From a virus, in IMG/VR virus record IMGVR_UViG_3300035698_019092, positions 1-41,412 of that record: DNA of 41,412 bases; one strand, given 5' to 3'. The notes under the pieces are model-generated. The model saw only the letters and a list, made by a program, of their open reading frames with translations. It was not told the DNA's origin and searched no databases. Shown here in pieces: positions 14,009 through 40,766 of this stretch. Within the stretch, counting starts at the first letter, position 1, and every line of letters starts with the position of its first letter. The position numbers and the translations under genes are program-made.

Positions 14009-16213
14009 TTAGGGACCTACCCAACTAGAAGCAAAATCATGTGAGGCAATACTACTACGTGTATGTTGACCCCGCAACAATTCCCGATCTCGAAACTCCA
14101 CCGGTAAAAAAGTGCTTTGTTCGTATACTCGTACATCCCCTCGATCATTAACTACATCAGTAATCAAAGGAGGACCAATCGAATTAGGGTATTTTGGATT
14201 GAAATACACTAATAACCTCTTGAGCACATCAGATATAAACGGGTGAAATTTAATACATCCTAATACCCCATTGCAACAATGACCATCCTCCGAAGCCTTT
14301 ACAGCAAAAGCAGAACAATCAACAATACTATCTAAACAACGAAGCGGTTCAAAGTCAACGTCTAGATATACTCCACCATTTTTGTAGAGAATCCAATACC
14401 GAAGCAAATCCACTTGTTGGGCAGGTTTTGAACATCTATCATAAATATAATGTAAAACCTCCGGAAGTATTCCCCGGAGGTTTCCCTTCCACAACTTATA
14501 GTCCCATTCTGGGTGCATTACTTTCCACTTTTCACACCAATCTCTATACTTTGAAGGCATCTCATCATCCCCTACCCAAATCTGGTGTATTTGTTTAGGA
14601 ATACTTGGAATTGGATCTACTGCCAAATCACGCTCTATGAAAAATATAGGTTGGAGGTCGAGCCGGTGTTTTTTTTGGAATAGAGGTAGCTCACTACGTC
14701 GAATACGAAAACGAATATAGATGGGATTCAACTTTCGTACGTGACCAAATATACAATCAGGAGTGTAAAACACCCCTATTTTTTTCTGTATACAATCAAG
14801 AGCCCAATCAGGGTGCTCAAACCTAATTTTGAACTGAGGGTCCCACTGACAATTCATTAGAGTTTCTCGTCTAGCAACAAAACAATTATTTGTCATGTCC
14901 ACTCGACGATAACGAACACCCCCAGGACCAACTCGCCAAGCCGTACGAATTGGCATAACACATAAAATCCTCTTCCCTTCTGGGGTCCTTTTCATTATCA
15001 ATTGTGCATTAAGATTCTGTGGAGTTGTTCCATCAAACCTAACGCACGCCGACAATATATCTACATCGGAATCACTATCCAAGCATTCAATCATTATTTT
15101 CAGATTGGTCTCTTTACTTATTACCATATCATCGTCTATTAGTACAACATATGGTTCGGATGCTTCTTGAATCAGCCGGTTCCGCCCGGCAGACAACCCA
15201 ACATCAAAACTCTCTTGTATCCATTTCACCCCGGGGGTTGATCGAACCCACTCGGCATCTGGAGGGTATTTGGGGTCATCCTGAAAACTGTCGTCTACTA
15301 TAGTGATAGGTACATTTGGATAGTGTAATCGAATTGATTCAACACAACGCCGTAAACACCCAAATCGTTTGAAACTCTTGATTAAAAATTCTAGGTCTTT
15401 CACCTCAGAGGATAATTTTGTAGGTTGAAGTTCTTTAGTATGAACGGCCTTTGATCGGTCTACGTGAGCTACCGCATTCATAAATTGACGTTCGGTAGGA
15501 CCCAAGTCTAAATACTCTACAATGCGATTTAACTCTGCTAATGGTTCTACTAACAAATCATGGATTTGAACCACTAGATGATCCCGACCCTGGAGAAAAT
15601 CAGTTTTTCTTTCTTGTAACCACCTCTGGAGTTTCGCACACTGTTTTCGACTGGCCCTAAATCTGAGATTTTTTGTGTCCGATGATCTGGTTGTCAAGGA
15701 CCGGATTGACTCGTCAATTGGACGTTCTAGGCTGATTATCTTCATGGGTTGATTTGTACTAGCAAAATCAGCTATCAATGCACATAAGTGTGGATACTTC
15801 ATACCATAGTGTTGACCATTTGCGTCATAACGATGTACTGATAACCAATCAAGGAACCATCTTACTCTGGATTTAGCACAATTATACCCTAAACCCATGG
15901 GTGTTAGGGTCCGGGTTGGAAAGGGCAGTGCGTTTTCACAAAAATGAGCAAGCTTTGAGTCTTCTCCTCCTTGGGTATTTTGGCCCATATACACCCCAAG
16001 TTTCTCTAAGCATTCAGCCACACAACTAGATAGTGTCCGGTGAATCCCCAATACAACAATTAGAGGAAAATCACCAGGGGTTGTATTATCTACAGAATTT
16101 GAATCAGCGTTACAATTCCGACTTGCATTTACCTTTAGGGGAGATAAAGTACATCCTTTTCGAGTACAATGCCACAACCCATCGGGCTTTTGCTTTAGAG
16201 TGCAATCAATCAT
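14009..16213 (-). CDS. Trifunctional sulfotransferase / GT2 / GT32-like fusion
   Basis: A 734-residue protein whose ATG overlaps the stop of the upstream tail gene (ATGA). A short Cys tag (DCTLKQKPDGLWHC) comes first. Region 1 (about 50-260) is a sulfotransferase: VVLGIHRTLSSCV as 5' loop and SLERPIDESIRSL as 3' site. Region 2 (about 275-500) is a GT2-type glycosyltransferase: ITIVDDSF and VVLIDDDMV. Region 3 (about 530-734) is GT32/OCH1-like: IPKQIHQIWVGDDEMP and DLLRYWILYKNGGVYLDVDF. The fusion joins two sugar transferases to one sulfate transferase. A single continuous frame with no internal stop supports it. Confidence 0.8.
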   Translation of the reverse strand: MIDCTLKQKPDGLWHCTRKGCTLSPLKVNASRNCNADSNSVDNTTPGDFPLIVVLGIHRTLSSCVAECLEKLGVYMGQNTQGGEDSKLAHFCENALPFPTRTLTPMGLGYNCAKSRVRWFLDWLSVHRYDANGQHYGMKYPHLCALIADFASTNQPMKIISLERPIDESIRSLTTRSSDTKNLRFRASRKQCAKLQRWLQERKTDFLQGRDHLVVQIHDLLVEPLAELNRIVEYLDLGPTERQFMNAVAHVDRSKAVHTKELQPTKLSSEVKDLEFLIKSFKRFGCLRRCVESIRLHYPNVPITIVDDSFQDDPKYPPDAEWVRSTPGVKWIQESFDVGLSAGRNRLIQEASEPYVVLIDDDMVISKETNLKIMIECLDSDSDVDILSACVRFDGTTPQNLNAQLIMKRTPEGKRILCVMPIRTAWRVGPGGVRYRRVDMTNNCFVARRETLMNCQWDPQFKIRFEHPDWALDCIQKKIGVFYTPDCIFGHVRKLNPIYIRFRIRRSELPLFQKKHRLDLQPIFFIERDLAVDPIPSIPKQIHQIWVGDDEMPSKYRDWCEKWKVMHPEWDYKLWKGNLRGILPEVLHYIYDRCSKPAQQVDLLRYWILYKNGGVYLDVDFEPLRCLDSIVDCSAFAVKASEDGHCCNGVLGCIKFHPFISDVLKRLLVYFNPKYPNSIGPPLITDVVNDRGDVRVYEQSTFLPVEFRDRELLRGQHTRSSIASHDFASSWVGP

Positions 16214-17247
16214 GTATAAATCCTCACAGAAGCACCAGCCGATCCCGCCCAATTAGTATTTGACATATACCCCAATACCTTATCAAAATTGGTGCAATCC
16301 AAAGGCGCCGAGTATGGACCCCCTCGAAATAAAGCACCGAATCCACAACCACCCACCCCACTAATGAAAAAAGTAATATAGGTCATGAACCCCCCACCAG
16401 TAAAAGACATTGAAAGTGATGCAAAAGTAGGATAATTATACTCCCAACCAATAGTCCCTAGTAAACAAGCATTACCAACTTTACTTAAAACCTTGGTGCC
16501 ATTGGGATTACACCTCGGAGTCGACAAATATTTTTTACCAAACAGCCCACACCCAAAATCTAGAGCCTCGGGAAACCCCGATAACTCTGCATAATAAAAA
16601 TTATTGTGTACTCCACACCCATCACACGGTCCCCTAAGTAAAGCATCCTCAATATCATCATTGTAGGTTGTTGGTGACGATCCATTGGAACCCGACAAAG
16701 TAGCAGTTAACGGAGCATAGTCCGGTGCGACACTTGTTTTTGTGAGATTAACCGAAAAATCGGTGCAGAAAGACTCTCGTTGATAATCACTAATATAAGA
16801 AAGGGTATACTTATTCCACGATGGTATTCGTACCCCCATATAATAACCATAGTAACCATGACACCCAGTATAAACCTCAAACAAACGATCTCCAACATCT
16901 GGAGTACCAAAACACCCTGGATATACAACACAAGTAAATAAATCACTGGCCCACTTACAAGCAGTAAAATCAACCGTCCAGGGATCTTGATCTAAAGGCC
17001 ATGATGACTCAGCACATTCAACCCACGGGATGTAGTATGTTTTATTGTGACAACTACAAGGGTAACCCGAAGAAATATTTACCCAATCCGAAAAACTTAA
17101 TGCCACACAATCAGGAGTAGTCTCCCGGAAGTGCCGACAATCAGAATCACATGTACGACAAGCCGGAACATCCAAAGCAAACCCACCGGGATTAGAACCC
17201 CGGTACATTGCTTTACCATTATACAATAAAGCTTTTTGCTTAGGCAT
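16210..17247 (-). CDS. Cys-rich distal tail or receptor-binding protein
   Basis: A 345-residue protein with 19 Cys, starting MPKQKALLYNGKAMYRGS. The TAATG overlap with the upstream gene and its position after the tape measure and two further tail genes make it a distal tail or fibre candidate. The Cys come in C-x-x-C and C-x-C pairs (CRTCDSDC, CSCHN, CDGCG) among Gly-, Tyr- and Thr-rich beta segments, which suggests metal- or disulfide-stabilised repeats. It lies directly ahead of the glycan genes. No family is recognised. Confidence 0.55.
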   Translation of the reverse strand: MPKQKALLYNGKAMYRGSNPGGFALDVPACRTCDSDCRHFRETTPDCVALSFSDWVNISSGYPCSCHNKTYYIPWVECAESSWPLDQDPWTVDFTACKWASDLFTCVVYPGCFGTPDVGDRLFEVYTGCHGYYGYYMGVRIPSWNKYTLSYISDYQRESFCTDFSVNLTKTSVAPDYAPLTATLSGSNGSSPTTYNDDIEDALLRGPCDGCGVHNNFYYAELSGFPEALDFGCGLFGKKYLSTPRCNPNGTKVLSKVGNACLLGTIGWEYNYPTFASLSMSFTGGGFMTYITFFISGVGGCGFGALFRGGPYSAPLDCTNFDKVLGYMSNTNWAGSAGASVRIYT

Positions 17248-25227: not shown

Positions 25228-26925
25228 TTATGCAGGAGCCGTAGTTGTGACCGCTGCCACTGCCCCTCGCTCAATTTGTCCACCGTAGCGAGCCATCACT
25301 ACGATTAGCATTTCGTTGTTACGCATCAAGGTAATCCCTTCGGTACTTGTGCGTACGGTAAATCCCTTACGACGATACATTCGATACTTAGCGAGAATCG
25401 CGTAGAATACCTGAGTATTCGCAAGGGCCTCATTGATCTTATAGGGACGATCCATCCAAACGAACGAACGATAACCCGTTCCCTCCATGCCAGACATTCC
25501 ACCACCCAAACGACGAGCGTCGTTTGTTCCTACATTAATTGCACGGGCTCTCTGGTAACTGGTTTCCGTTCCACAGAATACCGCAGAATTCATCAAATTG
25601 GGTTTGTGTTCGGCCTTGGAAACCGAAAACATCAACGACTCATAGTTACCTAACGAAGTTGCCCCACCCCAGGCAACCGTAGTTGCCCCAGAATTCATAA
25701 CACCCTGTGGCTGGGTGGTTCCATTACCTACAGAAATCACGTCATCCAAATCTTCCAGCAGACGTTCACCATATTGATTGGTAATGATTCGGCCAAACTC
25801 CAGAGGAGTATCCTCCATAAAGTCCAAACCGATTTGAACCGCACCCTCCCAACGATAAACAGTAGTGTTAAACGCTGCAACATAGTTAGTCGTGTTGAAC
25901 AAAGCAATTGCACTAGCATCAACACCACCCCACGATCCCGTCACCGTGTCAACCGACACCCCTTCAATGCGTCGGCCCCTTGACAAGGGAATTTCATTTA
26001 CAAGAGGGTACAACTCCCCAAACAACAAGGGGGTTTGAATTACCTGATCGTCAAAAACAATTGGGGCAGCTTCAAGTCCACCACTACCACCAACAGCATC
26101 ATCAATCAGGGTCTTAACCCCACCACGATAACCCTTCGTAATTCTCGGCTTGTGATCGTCCGAATCATCCCATTCACCCTTTTCACACAAATGGTGCAAT
26201 AGGTTCTTGTCCTCATCCGGTAGCATTTCCCAAGCTCTGTGGGGTGAACCCGCAATACGTGAAGTTTTACTAGCCAATTGGAACTTGGCCCAAGCACCAC
26301 ACAACGCCATATCGAAATCCGATCCTTCGTACAACTTTCGGCCATGAGCCATAACCGATTGTCCAGCCTTTGGATGAGGCGTCCCGGCCTTAGTCCTTTC
26401 TGGATAGGTCAAATCGTACCGCTTCGTATTATACTTCTCATCCATACCCTTCATACGAGACATCGATTTTCCATCTCCAGTATAAGTTGGGGTTCCACCC
26501 ATCTTACTGATTGATTCACTGACATCTTTCACCCCGGACAAATCAGAGGGGGGTTGATCCCCCGATTGAGTGCCAACAGATTTCTTGGGGTCTTCATTAT
26601 CCAATACCTTTTTAGGCTTTTTCTTTTCGTCCTCATCCTCATCCTCATCCTCGTCCTCGTCCTTGACCTTCGGAGGAGGTTTTGCCTTAGTACGATCCGA
26701 CTTCAACTCATCTACATCTATCTTCATTACCTTCACCAGATCAATCAATTCCTTCACCAGATCGATCTTTTCGTCCTTTGTCATACGCCGAAATTCTTCC
26801 GGGGTTAATGTACCATCAGCAAGCGCCTTGCCGGCCGCCTTGCGGAAGTCCTCATCGGTTGCTGTAGGTTCCACTTCCTGGTGCTCCACCAACCAACTCC
26901 TAAGTTTCGTCGTAATCTCAATCAT
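25228..26925 (-). CDS. HK97-type major capsid protein with acidic N-terminal extension
   Basis: A 565-residue protein. Residues 1-190 hold a helical N-terminus, an Asp/Glu repeat (DEDEDEDEDEDE, about 88-99) and a linker: a likely scaffolding delta domain removed by the prohead protease. The HK97 fold starts near 195 and includes AAPIVFDDQVIQTPLLFGELYPLV, RWEGAVQIGLDFMEDTPLEFGR and GTTQPQGVMNSGATTV. KYRMYRRKGFTVRTSTEG and NNEMLIVVMARYGGQIERGAVA form the C-terminal strands. Expression is likely strong: a good ribosome binding site (AAAAGGGAACAAG) and a terminator directly behind. Confidence 0.92.
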   Translation of the reverse strand: MIEITTKLRSWLVEHQEVEPTATDEDFRKAAGKALADGTLTPEEFRRMTKDEKIDLVKELIDLVKVMKIDVDELKSDRTKAKPPPKVKDEDEDEDEDEDEKKKPKKVLDNEDPKKSVGTQSGDQPPSDLSGVKDVSESISKMGGTPTYTGDGKSMSRMKGMDEKYNTKRYDLTYPERTKAGTPHPKAGQSVMAHGRKLYEGSDFDMALCGAWAKFQLASKTSRIAGSPHRAWEMLPDEDKNLLHHLCEKGEWDDSDDHKPRITKGYRGGVKTLIDDAVGGSGGLEAAPIVFDDQVIQTPLLFGELYPLVNEIPLSRGRRIEGVSVDTVTGSWGGVDASAIALFNTTNYVAAFNTTVYRWEGAVQIGLDFMEDTPLEFGRIITNQYGERLLEDLDDVISVGNGTTQPQGVMNSGATTVAWGGATSLGNYESLMFSVSKAEHKPNLMNSAVFCGTETSYQRARAINVGTNDARRLGGGMSGMEGTGYRSFVWMDRPYKINEALANTQVFYAILAKYRMYRRKGFTVRTSTEGITLMRNNEMLIVVMARYGGQIERGAVAAVTTTAPA

Positions 26926-26969: not shown

Positions 26970-28601
26970 TCAAGTCACAAGGCTAGAGTATTTATCTGCT
27001 AATATTGCGTCAGCTTGATTCCCTTCCAGAACACCCAAAACGAGTTTTACCAGTATGAAATCATCTGTGTCCCCTTTAGTAAAGAGGATGCCAATCGCCC
27101 GTTTAACTGAAATGTCTCCCGGCTGGTTTTTATCTACCAGTTGTTTAACTTGCTTTGATTCCCCTAGAGAAGACAACACTTGATTCAATCTACTAGTAGA
27201 TTGGTTCAACAATGCTTTGCAGGGTCGAGTCAACCCATCCATTCCTACCGCTTCCTTTAAGTCATCAACCGTTTCTCTAATTCGACTTTCATTCTGGGTT
27301 GACAACACCCGACCTTTCTTCTCCCCCCTTGTATTCGACTTAGTAATATCGATTGAAACTGTTACCAATACGTAATCCTCAGAAAACTTTAGGGTGTTCT
27401 CTTCAATCGTCCACATAAAACGATAATGAGTTCGATCCCCACTTTGTTGGCGCTCAACAGTTACAAGTAAACTATCCGGAAATGTTGCCTCTAAAAACAC
27501 CCAATCGTTTACTTCCGCTAATCCTAGTCCCTTAACATGGGGCACTATAGTTACACGAATTCTCTCTAACAAATCCTCGAATGATCCAGAAATAGGGCCA
27601 TAAAACTTTTCACTTGGAGGACCAACTTGAGTCTTATCCCCTATTACTTCGTTGTCACCGGTCTCGCGCTCTTTTCCTTCGGAGGCACCCGCATTGGCTT
27701 CTTTTGGTGTACTGGAGTCGTCCGATTTTCCTTCTGATTCCTTTTCGCATCCGGACTGGTTTTCACTTTTTACCTCCTGGTTATTAACTACCACCTTCAA
27801 ATCCAAAGTGACGGGAACTCTAGTAGGAGTATCCGACCTCAAACGTTCACCATATTGTTTCATAACGGTGCTGGTGAGTTTCCCACCCTCTACAAGCGAC
27901 AACAATACCTCTTGAGTCTCAGCATCAACATTAGCAGGAACACTCACCAGGGATTCCTCTAGGATCTCCCCCTTTTTCACATCGTAACCACCACCACTGA
28001 CACTCTTACCTAAATCCTCAAATTCAGTAGCTCTAAATCCGTGAGAGAAACGCCCCATACCATTATCTACCATAACGGCTGAATCATGACACAAATCGTT
28101 AATATCGACAATGGCTGAGATTACTACCAATTTAGATTCATCGTGAGAAACCACTCCAAGCATTTTACCAATGGGCATGGTGTGAACATGCTGCCAAAGC
28201 AAAAGCATCTTAGGATCAACTTTGAATCCACCCGTTCTCAGTACATCCTCATCACGATCCTTCCGACTAGTAGTAAGTACATGGCGAAAAACCATCAGGG
28301 TATCTTTAGGTAAATCCAACTGACCACTCAACTTAGAATAGTCATCCTTGGTCTTCTCCTCGATCTCCATTTCGGAGTTACCATAGACCAAAGTCTGAGC
28401 CGCCTTTTGCAGCACATCATTATAACTGGTATGAAGACCACCAGAGTTACTGCAAAAATGACGGTAACAAGCTTGAATGCCCAAAGCCTGCTCAACTGTT
28501 TTAACAAATCGATCCGCTGTAAGAATACCGTAGGCAAATTCGGTTTTCTTTTTAACTCTAGATCGAACTGCATCAAGCAGTAATTCGTTTGGGGTTTTCA
28601 A
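26970..28601 (-). CDS. Prohead maturation protease with C-terminal extension
   Basis: A 543-residue protein; start at a TTG eight bases after AAAGG; an earlier TTG at 28664 has a poorly spaced signal. The U35-type serine protease domain spans about 75-245: LMVFRHVLTTSRKDRDEDVLRTGG, LLWQHVHTMPIGKML (catalytic His near 137), and EESLVSVPANVD (nucleophile Ser in S-V-P-A-N, near 220). After an acidic Ser/Glu linker (about 285-340) comes a second domain, GSFEDLLERIRVTIVPH and FLEATFPDSLLVTVE, then a helical tail. The extension may act as scaffold. Confidence 0.85.
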   Translation of the reverse strand: MKTPNELLLDAVRSRVKKKTEFAYGILTADRFVKTVEQALGIQACYRHFCSNSGGLHTSYNDVLQKAAQTLVYGNSEMEIEEKTKDDYSKLSGQLDLPKDTLMVFRHVLTTSRKDRDEDVLRTGGFKVDPKMLLLWQHVHTMPIGKMLGVVSHDESKLVVISAIVDINDLCHDSAVMVDNGMGRFSHGFRATEFEDLGKSVSGGGYDVKKGEILEESLVSVPANVDAETQEVLLSLVEGGKLTSTVMKQYGERLRSDTPTRVPVTLDLKVVVNNQEVKSENQSGCEKESEGKSDDSSTPKEANAGASEGKERETGDNEVIGDKTQVGPPSEKFYGPISGSFEDLLERIRVTIVPHVKGLGLAEVNDWVFLEATFPDSLLVTVERQQSGDRTHYRFMWTIEENTLKFSEDYVLVTVSIDITKSNTRGEKKGRVLSTQNESRIRETVDDLKEAVGMDGLTRPCKALLNQSTSRLNQVLSSLGESKQVKQLVDKNQPGDISVKRAIGILFTKGDTDDFILVKLVLGVLEGNQADAILADKYSSLVT

Positions 28602-28738
28602 TTTATTGGCCTTTGGAAAAAATAATATGATAAATCGCAGACGTTTTCTTACAATCGTTGACAATTCCTTGGTCTAAGACACAAGGAATATATCCATCTA
28701 CGAAATTATCACTGGTTTCACTATCACCAGTTAAAACA

Positions 28739-29023: not shown

Positions 29024-29502
29024 TAGTCACCCTCCACATCAACCAAAGTAGCTGCAAACTCCGCAGATACCCTAGTAAGAAGAGTTGCAAACAATCGCTT
29101 TACGAACTTACGATCTTTTTTATATTTTTCATCACCGGTTCCGACTGCCGTCAAAAATCTTCCGACATCGTGGAAGTTAGGTCGCTGGTCGATTATCTTA
29201 CTGGAGTGTTTGAATGGGACAGTTTCCGTACCCAACTTTACACCCAAATTCACCAAACAATCACGAGTCATTACGGCTAACGCAACGACCTCTTCCTCCG
29301 AACCAAAAAAGACCATCCCCAAAACCCTGGGGCGATCAACCGAAAGTTTTACGTTGTCGGGCATCGACATTAGAACTTTCTCCTTGACATCTGGTTTTCG
29401 TATTTCCAAGTGTACAGTTTCATCACCTATAAAAACCGAATCTGAACCAACATACCTTGCCTTGCTTTGGTGCCGATTCCATTTATCTACCAGAGTATTC
29501 AC
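29023..29502 (-). CDS. Unknown head-region protein
   Basis: A 159-residue protein. The GTG start overlaps the TGA of the upstream poly-serine gene (GTGA); a GTG seven codons earlier is an alternative. Beta and helical segments alternate: VFIGDETVHLEIRKPDVKEK, KLSVDRPRVLGMVFFGSEEEVVALA and KHSSKIIDQRPNFHDVGRFLTAV, ending KFVKRLFATLLTRVSAEFAATLV. No domain is recognised. It is translationally coupled to both neighbours. Confidence 0.6.
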   Translation of the reverse strand: MNTLVDKWNRHQSKARYVGSDSVFIGDETVHLEIRKPDVKEKVLMSMPDNVKLSVDRPRVLGMVFFGSEEEVVALAVMTRDCLVNLGVKLGTETVPFKHSSKIIDQRPNFHDVGRFLTAVGTGDEKYKKDRKFVKRLFATLLTRVSAEFAATLVDVEGD

Positions 29503-30269
29503 GGCTGACTCTGAGACGACCACGACGAACTAGAGTGACTACTAGAACTAGAACTGGAGTGACTACTAGAACTAGAACTGGAAGAACTACTGAAACTCGA
29601 AGACGACTCACTGCTGGTAGATTGACTACTAGAGGATTCACTACTAGAGGATTCACTAGATGAACTACTACTACTAGAGGATTCACTAGATTCGCTACTT
29701 GTTGATCGGCTAGACGAACTTGACGACTCACTACTGGTGGAAAGACTTGAACTACTAGTAGAAAGACTCGACGAACTGCTATTCGACGAACTAGAGCTAC
29801 TGGTAGAAATACTGGACGAGCTACTAGAACTACTATTCGACGAACTAGAGCTACTGGTAGAAATACTGGACGAGCTTGACGATCCAGAAGAGAACGACGT
29901 ACTAGACCACGACGAACTAGAATGACTACTAGTGGAAGAACTGGAGGAGCTACTAGACAAATCCTCCATAGAAAGAATCTGCAAACGATCCAACGTTCGG
30001 GGGCCGGGAAACTGCAAACTTCCCGTATGGAAATTCAAGAAGTCTGGATCACTCTTTACTCCACTTGCACTAGTATCAACTAACCTAGCCTGATAGATTG
30101 TATTATGAGGTAACTCTACGGTCACAGACGTGCTTGTAGACCCCACTCCAGTATCATACGTTGGAGTGATTGCAGAATCATCTCCTGCCCGACTCATCCG
30201 AGTAATCGTCAAGACTCTTGAGGCAAGATTGACCGCCGGACCTAGATAGAATGTAACATTTACACCCAT
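29499..30269 (-). CDS. Virion protein with C-terminal poly-serine tract
   Basis: A 256-residue protein. Residues 1-103 make a beta-rich domain (NVTFYLGPAVNLASRVLTITR, TSTSVTVELPHNTIYQARLVD, LQFPGPRTLDRLQILSMEDL) that resembles fibronectin-like or fibre domains. Residues from 104 to the end are nearly all Ser, interrupted by T, N, E, I, F, W and Q. AGGAGATAAGGACTA precedes the ATG. A strong terminator (30287-30339) lies immediately upstream, so this gene probably has its own promoter or relies on read-through. Likely surface-exposed. Confidence 0.6.
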   Translation of the reverse strand: MGVNVTFYLGPAVNLASRVLTITRMSRAGDDSAITPTYDTGVGSTSTSVTVELPHNTIYQARLVDTSASGVKSDPDFLNFHTGSLQFPGPRTLDRLQILSMEDLSSSSSSSSTSSHSSSSWSSTSFSSGSSSSSSISTSSSSSSNSSSSSSSSISTSSSSSSNSSSSSLSTSSSSLSTSSESSSSSSRSTSSESSESSSSSSSSSESSSSESSSSQSTSSESSSSFSSSSSSSSSSHSSSSSSSHSSSSWSSQSQP

Positions 30270-31206: not shown

Positions 31207-32040
31207 TCACTCCCTGGTAGAAACCCTCCGGTTGTAATCATATAATAGTTGCAATGCGTCATTATCCTGCATTCCAAATTCTGTAGTAATTGAACACTGA
31301 CAGTGACATCGTTCCGACGCAGGTAGACTAATATGTCCAGGCCATGGTATTTTGTACCCACTCAAATCCCACATACCATTTTCGTCTTCAGGTACACCAT
31401 CCAGGTCTGCATGAGTATCCCTAGTGGTATTACCCAAAATACTTAACCACACTTGCTTTATCGGAACTTGTGGACCCAATTCCTCTTTAAGATGATCCAC
31501 CGCCTGTTTTCGTGCTCCATTTAACGCATTGGCTGATTCTGTTCTAGCAATATTCTCTGAACGCCATCTGGCATATCGAAACCCCCTACCTAGAAAATAC
31601 TCACGCATTCCAACAGAAATTCTTTTAATACTCCACCCGTCTTTTAGTCCCTGTGTCACATATCGTTCTGCATCTCCCATGGTTGTCACCGATATGTCAT
31701 CCCAATAATCTTGATTGAAACTCTTGGTTAGTTGTGTAGCAATAGCCGATTTCATCCATGGGGGTAACTCCGATAATATTCCCATTGGGGTTCCAGAGAG
31801 AGTGAAAACTTCCTCTAGAGCATACCAATCAGTAGAGTTATTAACAGCCCACTCAGCGGCGGTCGATGCCTTTTCAGGGTTTACCCTAATGTCAACCCCA
31901 ATAGACATAAGATGAGTAACCGCCGCCTCGGCCATATTTCGAGCCAAAATCGGAAGCATAACGTTTATCAATTGATCACGCCACTGCTTTGGATCGAAAA
32001 TCAATTGCATTAAAGCTTGTGCTTCGTCATCACTCGCCAT
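31207..32040 (-). CDS. Minor head protein, Mu F / SPP1 gp7 family
   Basis: A 277-residue protein that in this family occupies the inside of the procapsid beside the portal and helps DNA packaging and injection. Key motif at about residues 160-178: ENIARTESANALNGARKQA (R-T-E and A-x-N-x-A), followed by WLSILGNTTRDTHADLDG, the T-R-x-x-H motif. Near the end ERCHCQCSI is the usual metal-binding Cys cluster. The length is short for a MuF protein with a toxin domain. It lies four genes after the portal, a normal neighbourhood. Overlaps the upstream gene by 11 bp. Confidence 0.9.
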   Translation of the reverse strand: MASDDEAQALMQLIFDPKQWRDQLINVMLPILARNMAEAAVTHLMSIGVDIRVNPEKASTAAEWAVNNSTDWYALEEVFTLSGTPMGILSELPPWMKSAIATQLTKSFNQDYWDDISVTTMGDAERYVTQGLKDGWSIKRISVGMREYFLGRGFRYARWRSENIARTESANALNGARKQAVDHLKEELGPQVPIKQVWLSILGNTTRDTHADLDGVPEDENGMWDLSGYKIPWPGHISLPASERCHCQCSITTEFGMQDNDALQLLYDYNRRVSTRE

Positions 32041-32392
32041 TGGTATTACTCGTCTCTTCCGTGATATCTATATTAAGGCCACAGCCATCTGTTACCACCA
32101 ATACATCCTGATTATCACTACGTTTAGAAACAACCTGAACAATCTCCATGGCAACTGCTAGAGTATTTGAATTAGGAGGGCTTGACTTTATAGCTTCATC
32201 CAACTGATCCAAAAACACACCTAAATCATAAATGGTTCCTACATCAACAAATTCCCTTACCAATGGAACCTCCACAGATTCCGGTAAACCTCTAACCCAA
32301 TCAGCAAATTCATACCACCCCTCATTAGAAGCAATTTGACCAAAACCTTCGCTCTTTTCATCCTGATCGATCAAGTAAGCTTCAAAAGACAT
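32030..32392 (-). CDS. Small acidic protein, unknown
   Basis: A 120-residue protein, MSFEAYLIDQDEKSEGFG onward, preceded by AGGGTGATTTT. GWYEFADWVRGLPESVEVPLVREFVDVG and YDLGVFLDQLDEAIKSSPP are helical; TNTLAVAMEIVQVVSKRSDN and VLVVTDGCGLNIDITE follow. This pattern, with a Trp-rich N-terminus and acidic composition, suggests a small helical domain that could contact a DNA-binding partner. Sits between the MuF gene and the unknown 83-aa gene. Unknown. Confidence 0.55.
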   Translation of the reverse strand: MSFEAYLIDQDEKSEGFGQIASNEGWYEFADWVRGLPESVEVPLVREFVDVGTIYDLGVFLDQLDEAIKSSPPNSNTLAVAMEIVQVVSKRSDNQDVLVVTDGCGLNIDITEETSNTNGE

Positions 32393-32408: not shown

Positions 32409-32660
32409 TTATTCATCTGAATCATCGATCGTTGTTGAGGTATTACCCTCAATGTCTAACTTTTTTAGTCTACTACAAATTAACTCTACTTGAGCAACAA
32501 AAAAGGGTACTAGAGATTCTTGAATCTCATCCTCTACCTTTCTAGTTTGTTGAATTGCGAGAGTTCGATGTACTTCCTTTTGTACTAGTCTACGAGCCCT
32601 GATTGTAACTTTACGAAGTTTTGTCAAAGTATTCTGAGCTATTACGGATCTACGTCCCAT
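32409..32660 (-). CDS. Small basic helical protein, unknown
   Basis: An 83-residue product. MGRRSVIAQNTLTKLRKVTIR and RRLVQKEVHRTLAIQQTRKVEDE form long amphipathic helices rich in Arg and Lys; the C-terminus is acidic. It could be a coiled-coil packaging cofactor or chaperone. GGGGTTAGACACT lies ahead of the start. It lies directly after the portal gene; function unknown. Confidence 0.55.
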   Translation of the reverse strand: MGRRSVIAQNTLTKLRKVTIRARRLVQKEVHRTLAIQQTRKVEDEIQESLVPFFVAQVELICSRLKKLDIEGNTSTTIDDSDE

Positions 32661-32672
32661 AGTGTCTAACCC

Positions 32673-35510
32673 CTACCCAAATCCTTTAGCCCATTCACCT
32701 TGACCTTTAGCAGATTGTGGCAAATCAGCGTTGTCTTGACTAATCAATCTACGCACTTCGGATAAACTACTGCAAGCGTACATAGACCCTAATCGGTATG
32801 CCCCTGCACCACGTTTGTAATAGTATCGATTTCCACTGTACTGTTCAGAATGTTTCCCCCCATCAAAACTATCACGATCATCTACTAACACCGTATGAAC
32901 AACCCTCGACTGATCTTTTTTCTTCCATGATTCTTTTCGCCTACGAGATTCTGGGTGCATCGTAATTTTATCGTTATCATTATCCATAAACGTCTTTACT
33001 TCAATTCCATGAACCTTACCCTTTTTTCTACTAATAACATCCATCGGTTGATTATCGTTTAGAGCTTTACCTCCAACAGCCTTCGCTACTCGTTTTTCGT
33101 TGCTTCTTCCATTTTGTTGTTTCTCTACGGTAGAACTCTTATGAGTAGCCTTAGCTCTTTCAGCCCTATCCTTAGAACTCTTCTTCTTGCTCGAAAACGA
33201 ACCGGATGATTGCCCTTCACCACTACCAGAACCAAACCTACCACTGGAAGGATCACGGTTAGGGTTATTCTTCGACAAATCACTGACCTGACCATGTTTT
33301 TCAGGTGGGTGTTTTTCACCCAAAAAGTTCAAAACACCAGACATTTTATGTAACTCACCAATTACTGATCGGAAGCCTTCAATAACATCATCCATAAATT
33401 TCAATTCTGTATCGATCCGATTCATCAAATCAGACACATTTGTATCATCACTCTTAAACCCTGAAGACATACTCCTTGCACGACTTTGACTTTCTGCCAG
33501 TTGCTTTTTCAAATTAGTCAGACGTGCTTTTCCTTTCTCCTGAGACCTTTTCAACATTACTATCTTATCATCCAACTGACCAAGCCTATCCTCTATAACC
33601 TCTAATTTCTTCTTTCTAGCAGCAACTTGGTTTGACTGTTTAGCCTTAACTTCCTTCAATTCATCCCTTACTTTATCAGCCGCTTTCTTGGCTTTCCTAA
33701 CCTCCCTATCGGCCTCTGCTTGTGTTCCTTCTATTCGATCACTATAACTCTCTTTACCCCCAGGTGAACCCCCTGATCTAGGATTCACATCACCTCCAGA
33801 ATCACCTCCAGAACCGTCACCAGAATCACCTCCAGAACCACCTCCAGAACCGCCTCCAGAACCAAACCTACCACTGGAAGGATCACGGTTAGGGTTATAC
33901 TTCAACAAATCACTAGCCAACTCCAACGACTTTTGTAGCAACATTGTTGAAGACTCTAAAGCTTTTACAGTCTCATCAATTTCCTCAACTTCTTCAGGGA
34001 GGTCGTCTTCTTCTCTTTTGGGTTTATCAGACTTAGGAGGTTCAATGGGTTTCAATCCGATTCCCGCTATAGCTTTCGCCCTTTCACCCGATAGCCCATA
34101 TGAAATAAGTAGAGCTTCAGCTTGCTCTGGTCGAATTTTACCATCTCCCAGATGTTGTACTACCTGATTCACAGCATTGGCAATCCCCGGGTGAATTGCC
34201 GCCTCATTCAAATCATCATCGGGGCCAAATCCAGCCTCCGCCCTCAACTCATTTTGAGTAACATCCCCATTCTTACGCATCGCTAAAAGCATGGATTGCC
34301 TTAGTGATGGGTCCTGGGGTATTTTTTTCTCCCACCAAACAACAATCCTACTTTTAGTATCAAAACCCCTCAAAAAATTAGTCAGTACATTACCCAGCAA
34401 ATCCAAAATAGTATTAACTCTAGAGAAAAACCTCTTTTCGATATTCACAACTTGAGCATATCCCCCCACACCTACCGGCTCCCCTAGAATATAAGGATGC
34501 ACAGCAAAAGCACTCAAAATCCTAGTACGTACTGCCCCCTCACTTTTCTCCCAACCCATTTCAGTTGAAGTAGCACTAATACGATCAATTCGTTCAATCA
34601 ATCCATCTAGGATCAAAGGTTCCCCATAATTGAAAACCCCCTGAACGTGTTTAGCAATAGCAGATCGAATCTGTCGTCGTTGTTCGGGCCGAAAAACAGG
34701 TCGACCCTTTGTATCTACCATCATCTCTTGCTGACCGGCGGTAATCACAATAGATGGAAATACACCATTATGGAAAAATCTCTCCTGCGAAGTCTGTATG
34801 TGATCCTCAATACGAAGGGCAAGAATCTGCGAACCGGCTGGGGCTTTAGCACTTAACGGATCACTGGGATCAGGAAGATGAGCAAACGCTACCTGTTTTC
34901 GATCCAATTCCTCCCCTATACCACCCTTTTTAGGATTGCTCAACATGAACTTCGCAAAGGGAGTGGGATCATGAACTGGAGTAATCCAGGTGGTAGGCAA
35001 ACAATAGATTTCCACCCCATCTTTTGTTTTGCTTGCCACTATGTAAGACCAACCCGTCAAAAGAAGATTAACCGTAAATGAATAAACAAACTGCCAACGA
35101 TCTTGAATCACATTAGGTCTTTCCAATAAGTCAATCACCCAATGGTTTTCTAATACATCTAACTCTGTATGGGCAGTTTTGAGTTTTGCACTCTCCGACA
35201 TAACACCAAAATTTATACCCTTCGTACCTCGCTTGCCCCCTCTGGGTAATACATCCCCCTGCTCTGCCACCATAAAAGGTTGATTTGCAGCTTCTAGAGC
35301 AACCGCATTAATAGCCGAATACAACCACCCACGGAAAAGCCCATATCTCTCATGTTGCTTAGAATTATCTTGCATTGACGCAAATACCCCACCTCCCGAT
35401 GGGACCATCATATCACCCATACTTCCCGATTGCTTCAAATCCATTGCAGCACCATAAGAAGCATGGGAAATATCTCGACTTCTCTGAATAGACTTTTCTA
35501 AATAATCCAT
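32673..35510 (-). CDS. Portal protein with coiled-coil and nuclease-like C-terminal extension
   Basis: A 945-residue protein, about twice the usual portal length. Residues about 1-440 form the portal (Phage_portal, HK97-like): FRGWLYSAINAVALEAANQ, RERFFHNGVFPSI-type segment SQERFFHNGVFPSIVI, and PYILGEPVGVGGYAQVVNIEKRF. A linker KYNPNRDPSSGRFGSG with Gly-rich repeats follows (about 537-575), then a coiled coil (about 590-740), a second NNPNRDPSSGRFGSG (about 747), and a C-terminal domain with NEKRVAKAVGG ... PMDVISRK ... GIEVKTFM that fits the E / PD / ExK pattern of PD-(D/E)XK nucleases. The two linkers share a 43-bp identical DNA segment. Confidence 0.85.
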   Translation of the reverse strand: MDYLEKSIQRSRDISHASYGAAMDLKQSGSMGDMMVPSGGGVFASMQDNSKQHERYGLFRGWLYSAINAVALEAANQPFMVAEQGDVLPRGGKRGTKGINFGVMSESAKLKTAHTELDVLENHWVIDLLERPNVIQDRWQFVYSFTVNLLLTGWSYIVASKTKDGVEIYCLPTTWITPVHDPTPFAKFMLSNPKKGGIGEELDRKQVAFAHLPDPSDPLSAKAPAGSQILALRIEDHIQTSQERFFHNGVFPSIVITAGQQEMMVDTKGRPVFRPEQRRQIRSAIAKHVQGVFNYGEPLILDGLIERIDRISATSTEMGWEKSEGAVRTRILSAFAVHPYILGEPVGVGGYAQVVNIEKRFFSRVNTILDLLGNVLTNFLRGFDTKSRIVVWWEKKIPQDPSLRQSMLLAMRKNGDVTQNELRAEAGFGPDDDLNEAAIHPGIANAVNQVVQHLGDGKIRPEQAEALLISYGLSGERAKAIAGIGLKPIEPPKSDKPKREEDDLPEEVEEIDETVKALESSTMLLQKSLELASDLLKYNPNRDPSSGRFGSGGGSGGGSGGDSGDGSGGDSGGDVNPRSGGSPGGKESYSDRIEGTQAEADREVRKAKKAADKVRDELKEVKAKQSNQVAARKKKLEVIEDRLGQLDDKIVMLKRSQEKGKARLTNLKKQLAESQSRARSMSSGFKSDDTNVSDLMNRIDTELKFMDDVIEGFRSVIGELHKMSGVLNFLGEKHPPEKHGQVSDLSKNNPNRDPSSGRFGSGSGEGQSSGSFSSKKKSSKDRAERAKATHKSSTVEKQQNGRSNEKRVAKAVGGKALNDNQPMDVISRKKGKVHGIEVKTFMDNDNDKITMHPESRRRKESWKKKDQSRVVHTVLVDDRDSFDGGKHSEQYSGNRYYYKRGAGAYRLGSMYACSSLSEVRRLISQDNADLPQSAKGQGEWAKGFG
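33226..33268. repeat. 43-bp direct repeat in the portal gene, copy nearer the nuclease
   Basis: Identical to 33856-33898, 630 bp away. Encodes NPNRDPSSGRFGSG. Confidence 0.9.
33856..33898. repeat. 43-bp direct repeat in the portal gene, copy nearer the portal domain
   Basis: Partner of 33226-33268. The distance of 630 bp is a multiple of three, so recombination between copies would remove 210 codons in frame. Confidence 0.9.
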
Positions 35511-37078: not shown

Positions 37079-38214
37079 ATAATCTCATCACCCCCATAAT
37101 TGCGAAAACCACACAACGTAAACTGAGATTCTCCATCCAACAAATTCTCATCAACATAAACAACACCAGCCTTAGTGGGATCAATTGAATAAGAGTAATC
37201 CCCCAAACTTTCACTCGTAATCGCTCCGGCGGCATGTCCAATTTTCGTACCCTTTTTTCGCACTAGTCGTCTTCGTACCCTACGCAACGTCTCAGAAATT
37301 ACTACCCCCAAAATAGGCGATGCGTCGACTTGATTACTGTCGCCCCGGAACTCGTCATGACTGTAGCCAGCCCAATACACCACCTTTACACAACCGGGGG
37401 TTATAGGCCACAAGCCTTGGCTACGAACAATTCCATCCCGACATACAAAGTTTTCGTCAGCATCCTGTCCGTCATAGTTGGGCCAGTAGTCTGTACCCTC
37501 TACCTTCAAATGTTCTGCTTCAAATGAACCAACTCGGGTGCCAGCGCGACCGTCATAATCAATCCATAGCTGCATTGCGGGGGATGACCTAATAGGTAAT
37601 CCCTTTAGCTGCAACTCAGTGGTTTGACCCCCCGAGGACGTTCTCTGATAAGCCTGATTATCATTTACTTCCCAAACGGTTCTAGATCCACCGGCTCCCA
37701 CCACAGCCAATGGATAATACTCCGTCCGTTCCGAACACACGGGATCATACCCCAAGTAACGCCTCACTAGTCCTTCCACCCTGCGCATGAACGTGGAGAC
37801 GAGGGCCCTTTCCTCATCCGTCACACTGCCCGATAAGCCCGCCTCAAGCAACACCTCAGACACATCGGCAATGCGCCGGGTGCCTTCCAGGTGAAAGATT
37901 TGCTTAGAGACAAGCTTCCACTCCTGTGCGTCCGCGTTGTCGTAATAATCGAAGTAGAGGTTGTACGTCCCCGGGTTGATAGCCCCTAGGTCTGACGCAT
38001 CTAGGCGAAGGACATTAGTGGCCCCCTTCGTCAGACTGCTTCCATTCGCTGTAGGATCATCACTGGTTACCGTCAGCTTAGCCGTCTGGCCGTCCCTACC
38101 AATAATCACCCTAACCTTATCGTTCGCCCCAGGCGTGATTACAGCATCCGACGAATCGAGAATCTGGAGGTTTCGGGTTAGGCCCCGGTTTTGATAGGCA
38201 TAGATTAGGGTCAT
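37075..38214 (-). CDS. Head-tail connector with an extra N-terminal beta domain
   Basis: A 379-residue protein in two parts. Residues 1-115 form a beta sandwich (IYAYQNRGLTRNLQILDSSD, KVRVIIGRDGQTAKLTVTSDDP, RLDASDLGAINPGTYNLYFDYYDN) resembling the N-terminal domain of baseplate upper (BppU-type) and fibre proteins. Residues about 116-379 fit the gp6/gp15-type connector (ADVSEVLLEAGL, RRVEGLVRRYLGYDP, LKGLPIRSSPAMQLWIDYDG, RDGIVRSQGLWPITPG). The first 155 codons are much richer in GC than the rest. Its start is coupled to the poly-serine gene. Confidence 0.65.
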   Translation of the reverse strand: MTLIYAYQNRGLTRNLQILDSSDAVITPGANDKVRVIIGRDGQTAKLTVTSDDPTANGSSLTKGATNVLRLDASDLGAINPGTYNLYFDYYDNADAQEWKLVSKQIFHLEGTRRIADVSEVLLEAGLSGSVTDEERALVSTFMRRVEGLVRRYLGYDPVCSERTEYYPLAVVGAGGSRTVWEVNDNQAYQRTSSGGQTTELQLKGLPIRSSPAMQLWIDYDGRAGTRVGSFEAEHLKVEGTDYWPNYDGQDADENFVCRDGIVRSQGLWPITPGCVKVVYWAGYSHDEFRGDSNQVDASPILGVVISETLRRVRRRLVRKKGTKIGHAAGAITSESLGDYSYSIDPTKAGVVYVDENLLDGESQFTLCGFRNYGGDEII

Positions 38215-40766
38215 TTAGGAACCTCCACTGTTTTTCTCACCGGACCAACTTGAACGTCTGAATTATCGGTGGGTCCAACTTCCTCCAAAGTATTCCCACT
38301 AGGTCCTTCGTCGACAACTGAACTACTCACAGGTCCACTAACAATCTGACTATCTCGATTGGGATTACTTCCTTCCTCTATAACATCAGAAAGATTAACC
38401 CCACTGATATTGTAACTCTTCGGGTCTCCCGTGTCTGCGCCAACATCACTGTTTGCTGGACCTAAAACCTCTACACTTTTTTTGGTGGGTCCAGTAGATG
38501 TGAATGATGATGATGACGATCCCACCGATGATGTAGACTTACTAGCGGGTCCAGTTACAATCACAATTACATCTACAGGAAATTCCAGTAAACCCGTACT
38601 GGTACTTGTCGATGAACTACTTTCACTGGAGGTCGACAAGGACGAAGACGAACTGCTCTCGGAAGACTGACTGCTAGTAGAAAAACTGGAAGACTCACTT
38701 GATTGTGAACTAGACGAAGAACTAGAGGATTCACTGCTAGAGGATTCACTACTAGAGGATTCACTTGAGGATGAACTACTGGAAGACTCACTTGATTGTG
38801 AACTAGACGATGATGATGATGACGATTGACTAGAGCTAGAACTAGACGATGATATACTGCTAGTGGATTGACTTGATTGAGAACTACTACTTGAAAATGA
38901 CGACTCACTACTAGATGATGACGATTCACTGCTAGTGGAAAGACTAGACGATGACGTACTAGAAGATGTACTGCTAGAAGATTCACTGCTAGTGGAAAGA
39001 CTAGACGACGACGTACTAGAAGATTCACTGCTAGTGGAAAGACTAGACGACGACGTACTAGAAGATGTACTGCTAGTGGATTGACTGGAGGAAGAGGATT
39101 GACTAGAGGAAGATGATTCACTGGACAATGACGACAGACTAGAGGAAGAGGATTGACTAGAGAATGAGGATTCACTTGAGGAAGAGGATTGACTAGAGGT
39201 AGATGATTTACTGGATGATGATGATTCACTCGACAAGGAGGAGGATGATGACTGGCTACTAGACAATTCACTGGAAGACGATGACGATTCACTAGACGAT
39301 GACGATTCACTAGATGATGACGATTCACTGGAAGACGATGACGATTCACTGGAAGACGATGACGATTCACTGCTAGAGGATTCACTTGACGAACTAGAGG
39401 ATTCACTTGACGAACTAGAGGATTCACTTGAGAATGAACTACTACTTAAACTACTGCTTTCCGACGACTCACTGCTGGTAGATTGACTGGAGGATGACGA
39501 TGAAACACTACTAGAGGATTCACTTGAGGATGACGATGATTGACTACTAGTGGATTGACTGGATAAACTACTGCTCTCTGATGATTGGCTACTAGACGAT
39601 GATTTACTACTGGTGGAAAGACTTGACTGAGAACTACTACTAGAAGATTCACTTGAAGAGGAAGACGATTGACTAGATGATGATGTACTAGTTGAACTTT
39701 GGCTACTAGTGGAAAGACTTGACTGAGAACTACTACTAGAGGATTCACTTGAAGAGGATTGACTACTGAAGGACGAAGATTCACTACTAGAGGATTCACT
39801 TGAGGATGAGGATGACAATGATTGACTACTAGAGGATTCACTTGAGGATGATGACGATTGACTACTAGTGGATTGACTACTTTTTGACGATTGACTACTA
39901 GAGGATTCACTTGAAGAGGAAGATTCACTTGACAAACTAGAAGACTTACTACTAGTAGAAAGACTTGACTGAGAACTACTACTAGAGGATTCACTTGAGG
40001 ATGACGATGACTGACTACTGGTAGATTGACTACTAGAAGATTCACTTGAGGATGACGATGATTGACTAGATGACGATGACGATTGACTACTGGTAGATTG
40101 ACTTGATTGAGAACTACTACTGGACGATTCACTTGAAGATGACGATGATTGACTAGATGACGATTCACTAGATGATGACGAAGATTCACTGCTAGTGGAA
40201 AGACTACTGGACGATTCACTTGAAGATGACGATGACTGACTAGATGACGATTCACTAGATGACGACGTACTAGATGATGACGACGATTGACTACTAGTAG
40301 AAAGACTACTAGAGGATTCACTTGAGGATGATGACGATTGACTACTGGACGATTCACTAGATGATGACGACGATTGACTACTAGTAGAAAGACTTGACTG
40401 AGAACTACTAGAAGATTCACTTGACAAACTACTGCTTTGAGATGATTCACTTGAGGATGACGATGACTGACTGCTAGAAGATTCACTTGAGGATGACGAT
40501 TGACTACTGGTGGATTGACTCGACGATTCACTACTACTAGAGGATTCACTTGAGGAAGATTCACTAGAGGAAGATTCACTAGAGGAAGACGATGACTGGC
40601 TACTAGTGGATTGACTCGACGATTCACTACTAGTAGAGGACTGACTACTAGAAGATTCACTAGAGGAGGATGATTCACTAGATGGAGAACTACTACTGCT
40701 CTCCTCATCCCAAAACTCAAGAAATGAGCTGATTGGTCTGGAAGATATAGGAACACCACTTAACAT
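38211..40766 (-). CDS. Very long poly-serine virion protein with C-terminal Gly-Pro repeats
   Basis: An 851-residue protein. After a short N-terminus (MLSGVPISSRPISSFLEFWDEE), residues about 22-723 are nearly all Ser, with single E, Q, T, L, F, K and V. The C-terminal about 125 residues hold decamer-like units (GPVSSSVVDE, GPSGNTLEEV, GPTDNSDVQV, GPVRKTVEV). Ser codons of all six kinds are mixed, which limits but does not remove DNA repeats. Such a protein is probably a flexible, surface-exposed fibre or brush and a candidate for O-linked modification. Lies among head genes. Confidence 0.7.
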   Translation of the reverse strand: MLSGVPISSRPISSFLEFWDEESSSSSPSSESSSSSESSSSQSSTSSESSSQSTSSQSSSSSSESSSSESSSSESSSSSESSSQSTSSQSSSSSESSSSQSSSSSSESSQSSSLSSESSSSSQSSLSTSSQSSSSSSESSSSQSSSSSSESSSSLSTSSQSSSSSSTSSSSESSSSQSSSSSSESSSSLSTSSESSSSSSESSSSQSSSSSSESSSSSSQSSQSTSSQSSSSSSQSSSSSSESSSSQSTSSQSSSSSSESSSSSSQSSLSTSSKSSSLSSESSSSSESSSSQSSKSSQSTSSQSSSSSSESSSSQSLSSSSSSESSSSESSSFSSQSSSSESSSSSSQSSLSTSSQSSTSTSSSSQSSSSSSESSSSSSQSSLSTSSKSSSSSQSSESSSLSSQSTSSQSSSSSSESSSSVSSSSSSQSTSSESSESSSLSSSSFSSESSSSSSESSSSSSESSSSESSSSSSESSSSSSESSSSSESSSSSESSSSSSELSSSQSSSSSLSSESSSSSKSSTSSQSSSSSESSFSSQSSSSSLSSLSSESSSSSQSSSSSQSTSSTSSSTSSSSLSTSSESSSTSSSSLSTSSESSSSTSSSTSSSSLSTSSESSSSSSESSFSSSSSQSSQSTSSISSSSSSSSQSSSSSSSSSQSSESSSSSSSSESSSSESSSSESSSSSSSSQSSESSSFSTSSQSSESSSSSSLSTSSESSSSTSTSTGLLEFPVDVIVIVTGPASKSTSSVGSSSSSFTSTGPTKKSVEVLGPANSDVGADTGDPKSYNISGVNLSDVIEEGSNPNRDSQIVSGPVSSSVVDEGPSGNTLEEVGPTDNSDVQVGPVRKTVEVPK

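Follow-up and report, generated by a model that had tools for sequence, protein, structure and literature searches.

Why would a phage attach a nuclease to its portal protein? The question is raised by an open reading frame on IMG/VR uncultivated virus record IMGVR_UViG_3300035698_019092, of which positions 1 to 41,412 were analyzed and are called the window here. The frame at 32673-35510 (minus strand) is open and encodes 945 residues, which an earlier note had read from the letters alone as a portal protein with a nuclease-like domain behind two copies of a linker. The portal assignment holds. Residues 119-425 match Pfam Phage_portal (E 8.3e-25), the closest relative with a solved structure is the RcGTA portal (6tba, E 4e-9), and the HK97-type core (PF04860) lies within a head module that has MuF, S78 protease and capsid genes downstream. 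Both linkers were also found, with NPNRDPSSGRFGSG occurring exactly twice, at residues 539 and 749. The protein is laid out as follows.

33897..35510, minus strand: portal core, residues 1-538, from the PF04860 match (E 8.3e-25) and sister portals
33855..33896, minus strand: linker (tag) copy 1, NPNRDPSSGRFGSG, residues 539-552, at the usual end of cargo-free sister portals
33267..33854, minus strand: inter-linker segment, residues 553-748, a Gly/Ser-rich stretch and then a predicted coiled coil
33225..33266, minus strand: linker (tag) copy 2, residues 749-762, an exact match to copy 1
32739..33182, minus strand: PD-(D/E)XK nuclease domain, residues 777-924, from AlphaFold2 models, the match to Hjc (Z 10.8) and family conservation

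Sister portals are 41-50% identical to the window portal over about 485 residues, and the majority terminate near residue 538, at the start of linker 1, without the nuclease. The segment between the linkers gave only weak coiled-coil matches in Pfam, and a phmmer search over the fetched loci returned the segment itself alone. A 12-nt tandem repeat at window positions 33789-33872 (minus strand) encodes the Gly/Ser-rich stretch immediately past linker 1.

We then considered the C-terminal domain, whose landmarks are E805, D824, E837, K839 and KITMHPES at 848-855, in the order E805, PMD824, IE837VK839. AlphaFold2 models from 12 and 17 sequences had pLDDT values of 84.4 and 91.2, respectively, and their elements run helix, two long strands, helix, strand, as is typical of a PD-(D/E)XK core. 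The alpha-beta-beta-beta-alpha-beta arrangement was present in the models and in their Foldseek and VIA matches (Hjc, RecU, SPARDA, HincII and VRR_NUC). The best solved match was the archaeal Hjc resolvase 1ob8, with a Z score of 10.8, which exceeds the 7-8 that the tool gives as common background, and an rmsd of 2.5 over 105 residues. SPARDA nuclease subunits (9qcc, Z 10.0) and RecU ranked next, and the top of the list consisted almost wholly of PD-(D/E)XK enzymes. To assess conservation, we collected 40 family sequences, which are 45 viral loci minus identical copies and still include near-duplicates (L082/L084, L018/L073 and L004/L012). D824, E837 and K839 are invariant (40/40), as are K848 and T850 of the KIT motif and the Lys of the next helix (alignment position K85). 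Residue 805 of helix A is Glu in 31 sequences and Gln in the other 9. Because the D...ExK residues are retained throughout, the motif is not a chance occurrence. The proposed motif order is present, the predicted structures contain the restriction-endonuclease-like core, and the relatives keep the catalytic residues; a prediction lacking that core, or relatives lacking the acidic triad, was what the earlier note had named as speaking against the assignment. In the predicted models, the domain is a PD-(D/E)XK nuclease fold, and it is probably catalytically active.

The modeled fold does not disclose the substrate, which may be DNA or RNA, its top matches being Holliday-junction resolvases and SPARDA nucleases. 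Identity to Hjc is 7-18% and comes from structural alignment only, and sequence searches with the domain matched no resolvase family. Although the window domain shares the PD-(D/E)XK core with Hjc and the SPARDA subunits, it is only ~7-19% identical to them, is attached to phage head proteins and belongs to a family with its own K(I/V)T(M/V)HP and G(V/L)G(S/A)FR motifs. Pfam searches with the domain alone gave NOV_C at E 0.011, below the cut-off, and the sequence libraries gave sub-threshold hints (NOV_C at E 7.5e-4 at best, PDDEXK_14 at E 0.07). A profile search of PDB sequences stayed at chance level; its best match (E 0.5) aligned the D...ExK segment with the nuclease Card1. PHROG and NCBIfam held no family for the domain; phrog_113, a portal family, matched weakly at its C-terminal end. 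The nuclease family lies outside every curated family found and appears to be undescribed, as far as these searches reach.

Single-sequence searches for related loci with the domain or the whole portal returned nothing useful, and the 45 viral loci were recruited with the KITMHPE pattern and then with profiles. At tblastn sensitivity, the domain was absent from 50,697 phage records; as a control, the portal and inorganic pyrophosphatase (InPase) parts of the L063 protein matched 497 of them, none spanning most of the query. Two pattern-based scans of 84,980 prokaryote species genomes found one copy, on the MuF protein of a Sulfuricurvum MAG contig, and in BFVD the one close relative (47% identical) comes from an uncultured Caudovirales phage. 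The family is therefore one of mostly uncultivated viruses.

We next asked which proteins carry the nuclease. Pfam and PHROG place it on four portal families, PF04860, PF05136, PF06381 and PF06074, and the PF06074 fusion includes MuF as well. It also occurs on MuF itself or in a separate or polyvalent gene, mostly adjoining MuF: the nuclease gene is flanked by portal and MuF in L069, with overlapping ends, overlaps MuF in L062, L073 and L042, and follows MuF in L068, L077, L038 and L081. Portal or MuF thus bears a domain that is enzymatic by fold and active site in the window and in relatives alike, and by sequence comparison the nuclease is a mobile family that shifts between portal, MuF and free-standing genes. 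In three loci (L048, L063 and L078), a triple fusion joins portal, InPase and PD-(D/E)XK nuclease, on two portal families. The 1,537-residue MuF protein of L037 (3771-8381) contains six PRDxxGEF-type linkers between modules that include an ART-PolyVal domain and the nuclease. Intein- or Hint-like insertions interrupt MuF in L084/L082, L092, L083 and L056; those of L084, L092 and L083 lie near a conserved CNC site, and that of L056 includes a DUF559 domain.

In the window, Pfam and PHROG group adaptor, portal, MuF, S78 protease and capsid genes as a single module, whose members next to the portal and downstream are these.

32409..32660, minus strand: small gene resembling the N-terminal part of sister MuF proteins (blastp 36% identity, E 8e-8)
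32030-32392: unassigned 120-residue ORF after the small MuF-like gene
31207..32040, minus strand: MuF minor head protein, cargo-free (Pfam PF04233, E 1.8e-7; 58% identity to the MuF of L040)
26970..28664, minus strand: prohead serine protease, S78 (Pfam PF04586, E 1.9e-4; PHROG head maturation protease, E 1.4e-9)
25228..26925, minus strand: major capsid protein (Pfam PF05065, E 1.5e-10)

The MuF protein of the window has no cargo, and in sister phages it is MuF that carries the nuclease. Among the 15 portal relatives fetched for the window's lineage, L040 (portal 43% and MuF 58% identical to the window's) has a bare portal and the nuclease on MuF, behind GQPRDDYGRFGSG; L084 also has it on MuF. 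The portals of L085 and L086 end in a HELGHH metallopeptidase-like tail, as predicted from sequence. In L096, MuF has an insert of ~500 residues at its residue-53/58 junction and a C-terminal ADP-ribosyltransferase (ART), with a nuclease gene immediately after it, and L094 has an ART on MuF. Topoisomerase IB is inserted in the MuF of L085 and L086 at the same junction, with the remainder of MuF in the next ORF. From these arrangements, the lineage has four cargo slots (portal C-terminus, MuF interior, MuF C-terminus and the gene after MuF), in which the predicted cargo varies. The topoisomerase (L085:8202-9614 and L086) is a PF01028 core in frame with the N-terminal part of MuF, behind EKFNPYHDSATGRF.

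We then examined the linker itself. Linkers of this type had been expected ahead of effector domains in phage head proteins, and this expectation held: a strictly defined motif adjoins the nuclease in 24 of the 40 collected sequences, compared to 1.4% of windows drawn at random from these loci. Some ten others can be read by eye as variants; HPRGKAGKF, QPRVPAGGAGGGEF and GLWITVNGQHILVG are examples. Across relatives, the domain almost always has a linker of these kinds ahead of it, and three recurrent classes can be told apart (PRDxxGRF, GSGNFGHxGRPG and WxTxxGxxVxI). Within the window, 41 nt of the two linkers are identical, where none would be expected by chance, and they sit within a direct repeat that takes in portal codons upstream of the linker.

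33849..33914, minus strand: 66-nt direct repeat, copy 1 (end of portal helix and linker), 92% identical to copy 2
33219..33284, minus strand: 66-nt direct repeat, copy 2, 92% identical to copy 1

The MuF gene of L096 has a comparable internal repeat (86-nt copies, 93% identical). Both repeats fit a model in which arrays would grow by recombination that copies the end of the carrier together with the linker. Elsewhere, paired linkers have diverged in DNA and remain nearly the same in protein: 24/24 residues and 51/72 nt are identical in L042, 18/18 and 45/54 in L081, 44/47 and 122/141 in L039, and 16/17 and 45/51 in L096/L038. Pooled by hand, these pairs differ at ~0.05 per nonsynonymous and ~0.54 per synonymous site; the set was picked post hoc and by motif, so the comparison is no formal test. 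The pattern is suggestive of selection acting on the linker sequence.

Free-standing cargo genes keep the tag at or near the N-terminus (L039, L038 and L081). L039 has two consecutive genes with a near-identical 47-residue leader and differing cargo, one of which is the nuclease. The usual free-standing layout is a short helical-looking N-terminal stretch, the tag and then a large protein. A tblastn search with the tag matched Gilgamesh gp48 at E 3e-6, a value obtained with a query shaped on that same match; gp48 lies two genes past a portal-MuF fusion gene, with one small gene between. In Gordonia phages, Phendrix gp66, Boopy gp78 and Sixama gp73 gave weaker matches (E 0.5 to 4, singly not significant), in each case near the start of the gene immediately after the portal. 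HHTV-1 gp13 has WNPALHPRGPDGKF near residue 132, with a MuF gene close by. A tblastn search with a 25-residue GxGSGNFGHxGRPG linker returned no match, possibly from masking as low complexity. Literature searches on the linker found nothing, and the shared tag appears to be undescribed as far as they reach. Gilgamesh gp48 (Streptomyces phage, L131) is a hypothetical protein of 4,624 residues with the tag near residues 32-45.

What could such an arrangement do? The portal crown, built from the C-terminal end in solved portals, faces the capsid lumen, and the portal ring normally remains in the capsid in known phages; delivery would therefore need cleavage at the linker. The portal C-terminus is the crown in P1 (PMC12810830), and the crown is a named domain of the RcGTA portal. 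We propose, with a probability of about 58%, that the portal serves as a cargo carrier and that the nuclease, appended to its C-terminus behind a reusable tag, is virion cargo delivered at infection. About 12 copies would sit inside the head on the capsid-side crown and would most likely be freed or exposed at head maturation, with the S78 prohead protease of the window as the candidate linker-processing enzyme. The nuclease would then enter the bacterium with the DNA and may cut host or competitor DNA, or defense nucleic acid. Injected virion cargo is consistent with a lumenal nuclease whose active site never varies and whose place can be taken by ART, metallopeptidase, topoisomerase or pyrophosphatase. 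Against this reading, a DNase next to packaged DNA would need to be held inactive.

The resemblance to Hjc could instead indicate that the portal nuclease trims branched DNA entering the head. The C-terminal crown is on the capsid side, past the point where DNA branches stall, which argues against such a resolvase. So does the presence of the same domain on MuF or in its own gene, its absence from the majority of sister portals and its replacement by enzymes without a part in packaging (ADP-ribosyltransferases and metallopeptidases). The precedent is T4 endonuclease VII, which associates with portal gp20 and releases stalled Y-DNA according to a title in the reference list of PMC9958956. We consider a packaging resolvase unlikely and favor delivery with the DNA. 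It is just as unlikely that the nuclease acts late in the infected cell, in counter-defense or DNA processing, and is made with the head proteins so that its presence in virions is incidental. Free-standing versions do exist and some look translationally coupled to MuF, as in the ATGA overlap of L096/L038, but fusion to low-copy virion proteins and retention of the tag point to virion targeting.

A similar design is seen in the MuF polymorphic toxins that temperate phages encode: a C-terminal effector, often a nuclease, on a portal-adjacent head protein, in most cases with a candidate immunity gene downstream (Jamet et al. 2017, PMC5576092). By analogy, the window nuclease could arm a lysogen against competing bacteria, its carrier being of the same class (PMC5576092), with protection from a neighboring immunity gene. 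Here, however, the portal is the carrier (in relatives L040 and L084 it is MuF, with the nuclease C-terminal to it), and we see no apparent immunity gene. Bacterial genomes almost entirely lack the family: pattern-based scans found one copy in 84,980 prokaryote genomes, too few for a common prophage family. The gene immediately downstream of the portal was considered as an immunity gene and dropped: its product matches the N-terminus of MuF (36% identity, E 8e-8) and so belongs to the head module. We regard a lysogen toxin as quite improbable. Least probable of all is a nuclease fold that has lost catalysis and serves to bind DNA or as a structural knob. The Gln that replaces the helix Glu in 9/40 sequences speaks for it, and the invariance of D...ExK (its D, E and K, 40/40) speaks against it.

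Fusions of effectors to portals are a known class (PMC5512222, PMC9503650). PBECR, 2H, InPase, Nudix and ART domains are fused to portal, MuF or prohead protease, and packaging with injection has been proposed for them (Iyer et al. 2017, PMC5512222; Viruses 2022, PMC9503650). The window protein is likewise an enzyme on a head protein, and our three portal-InPase-nuclease relatives join both kinds of cargo. With the terms searched, a PD-(D/E)XK domain on a portal was not found in these two papers, which do not mention the tag or contain the word "linker". Head-packaged, injected effectors are known from T4 (Alt and IPI) and P1 (Dar proteins) (PMC9958956, PMC12810830). The T4 capsid-targeting sequence and the P1 Dar leaders resemble the tag in being N-terminal; they target effectors into the prohead, with protease processing and injection. 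Their sequences differ from the tag, however, which is also an internal linker on portal and MuF and for which targeting and processing are putative.

A tentative extension, with the odds somewhat against it, is that the linker (short helix, N/H-P-x-R-D-x-x-G-R-F, Gly) is a general capsid cargo signal in tailed phages. On portal and MuF it would act as an internal joint, and on free-standing cargo as an N-terminal leader; it would load, and perhaps proteolytically release, changing enzymes, while its DNA repeats would allow cargo to be exchanged among phages by recombination. Should the tag direct targeting or cleavage, injected effectors could be found from sequence alone, and it would offer a means of loading proteins into phage heads. 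The cultured tagged phages Gilgamesh, Boopy, Sixama and Phendrix make this model testable. One phage lineage directly shows cargo moving among portal, MuF and separate genes behind a common tag, and the nuclease family adds an apparently undescribed member to the arsenal that phages may inject.

Among the other proteins of the window, Ser-rich repeats (SSESSSSQSS) make up most of the two encoded at 38211-40766 and 29499-30269 (both minus strand), and sister phage L081 has similar Ser-rich proteins. The former contains NPNRD without GRF. Finally, the ORF at 14009-16252 (minus strand) encodes 747 residues with two glycosyltransferase domains (PF00535 and PF04488) and lies inside the phage structural region.
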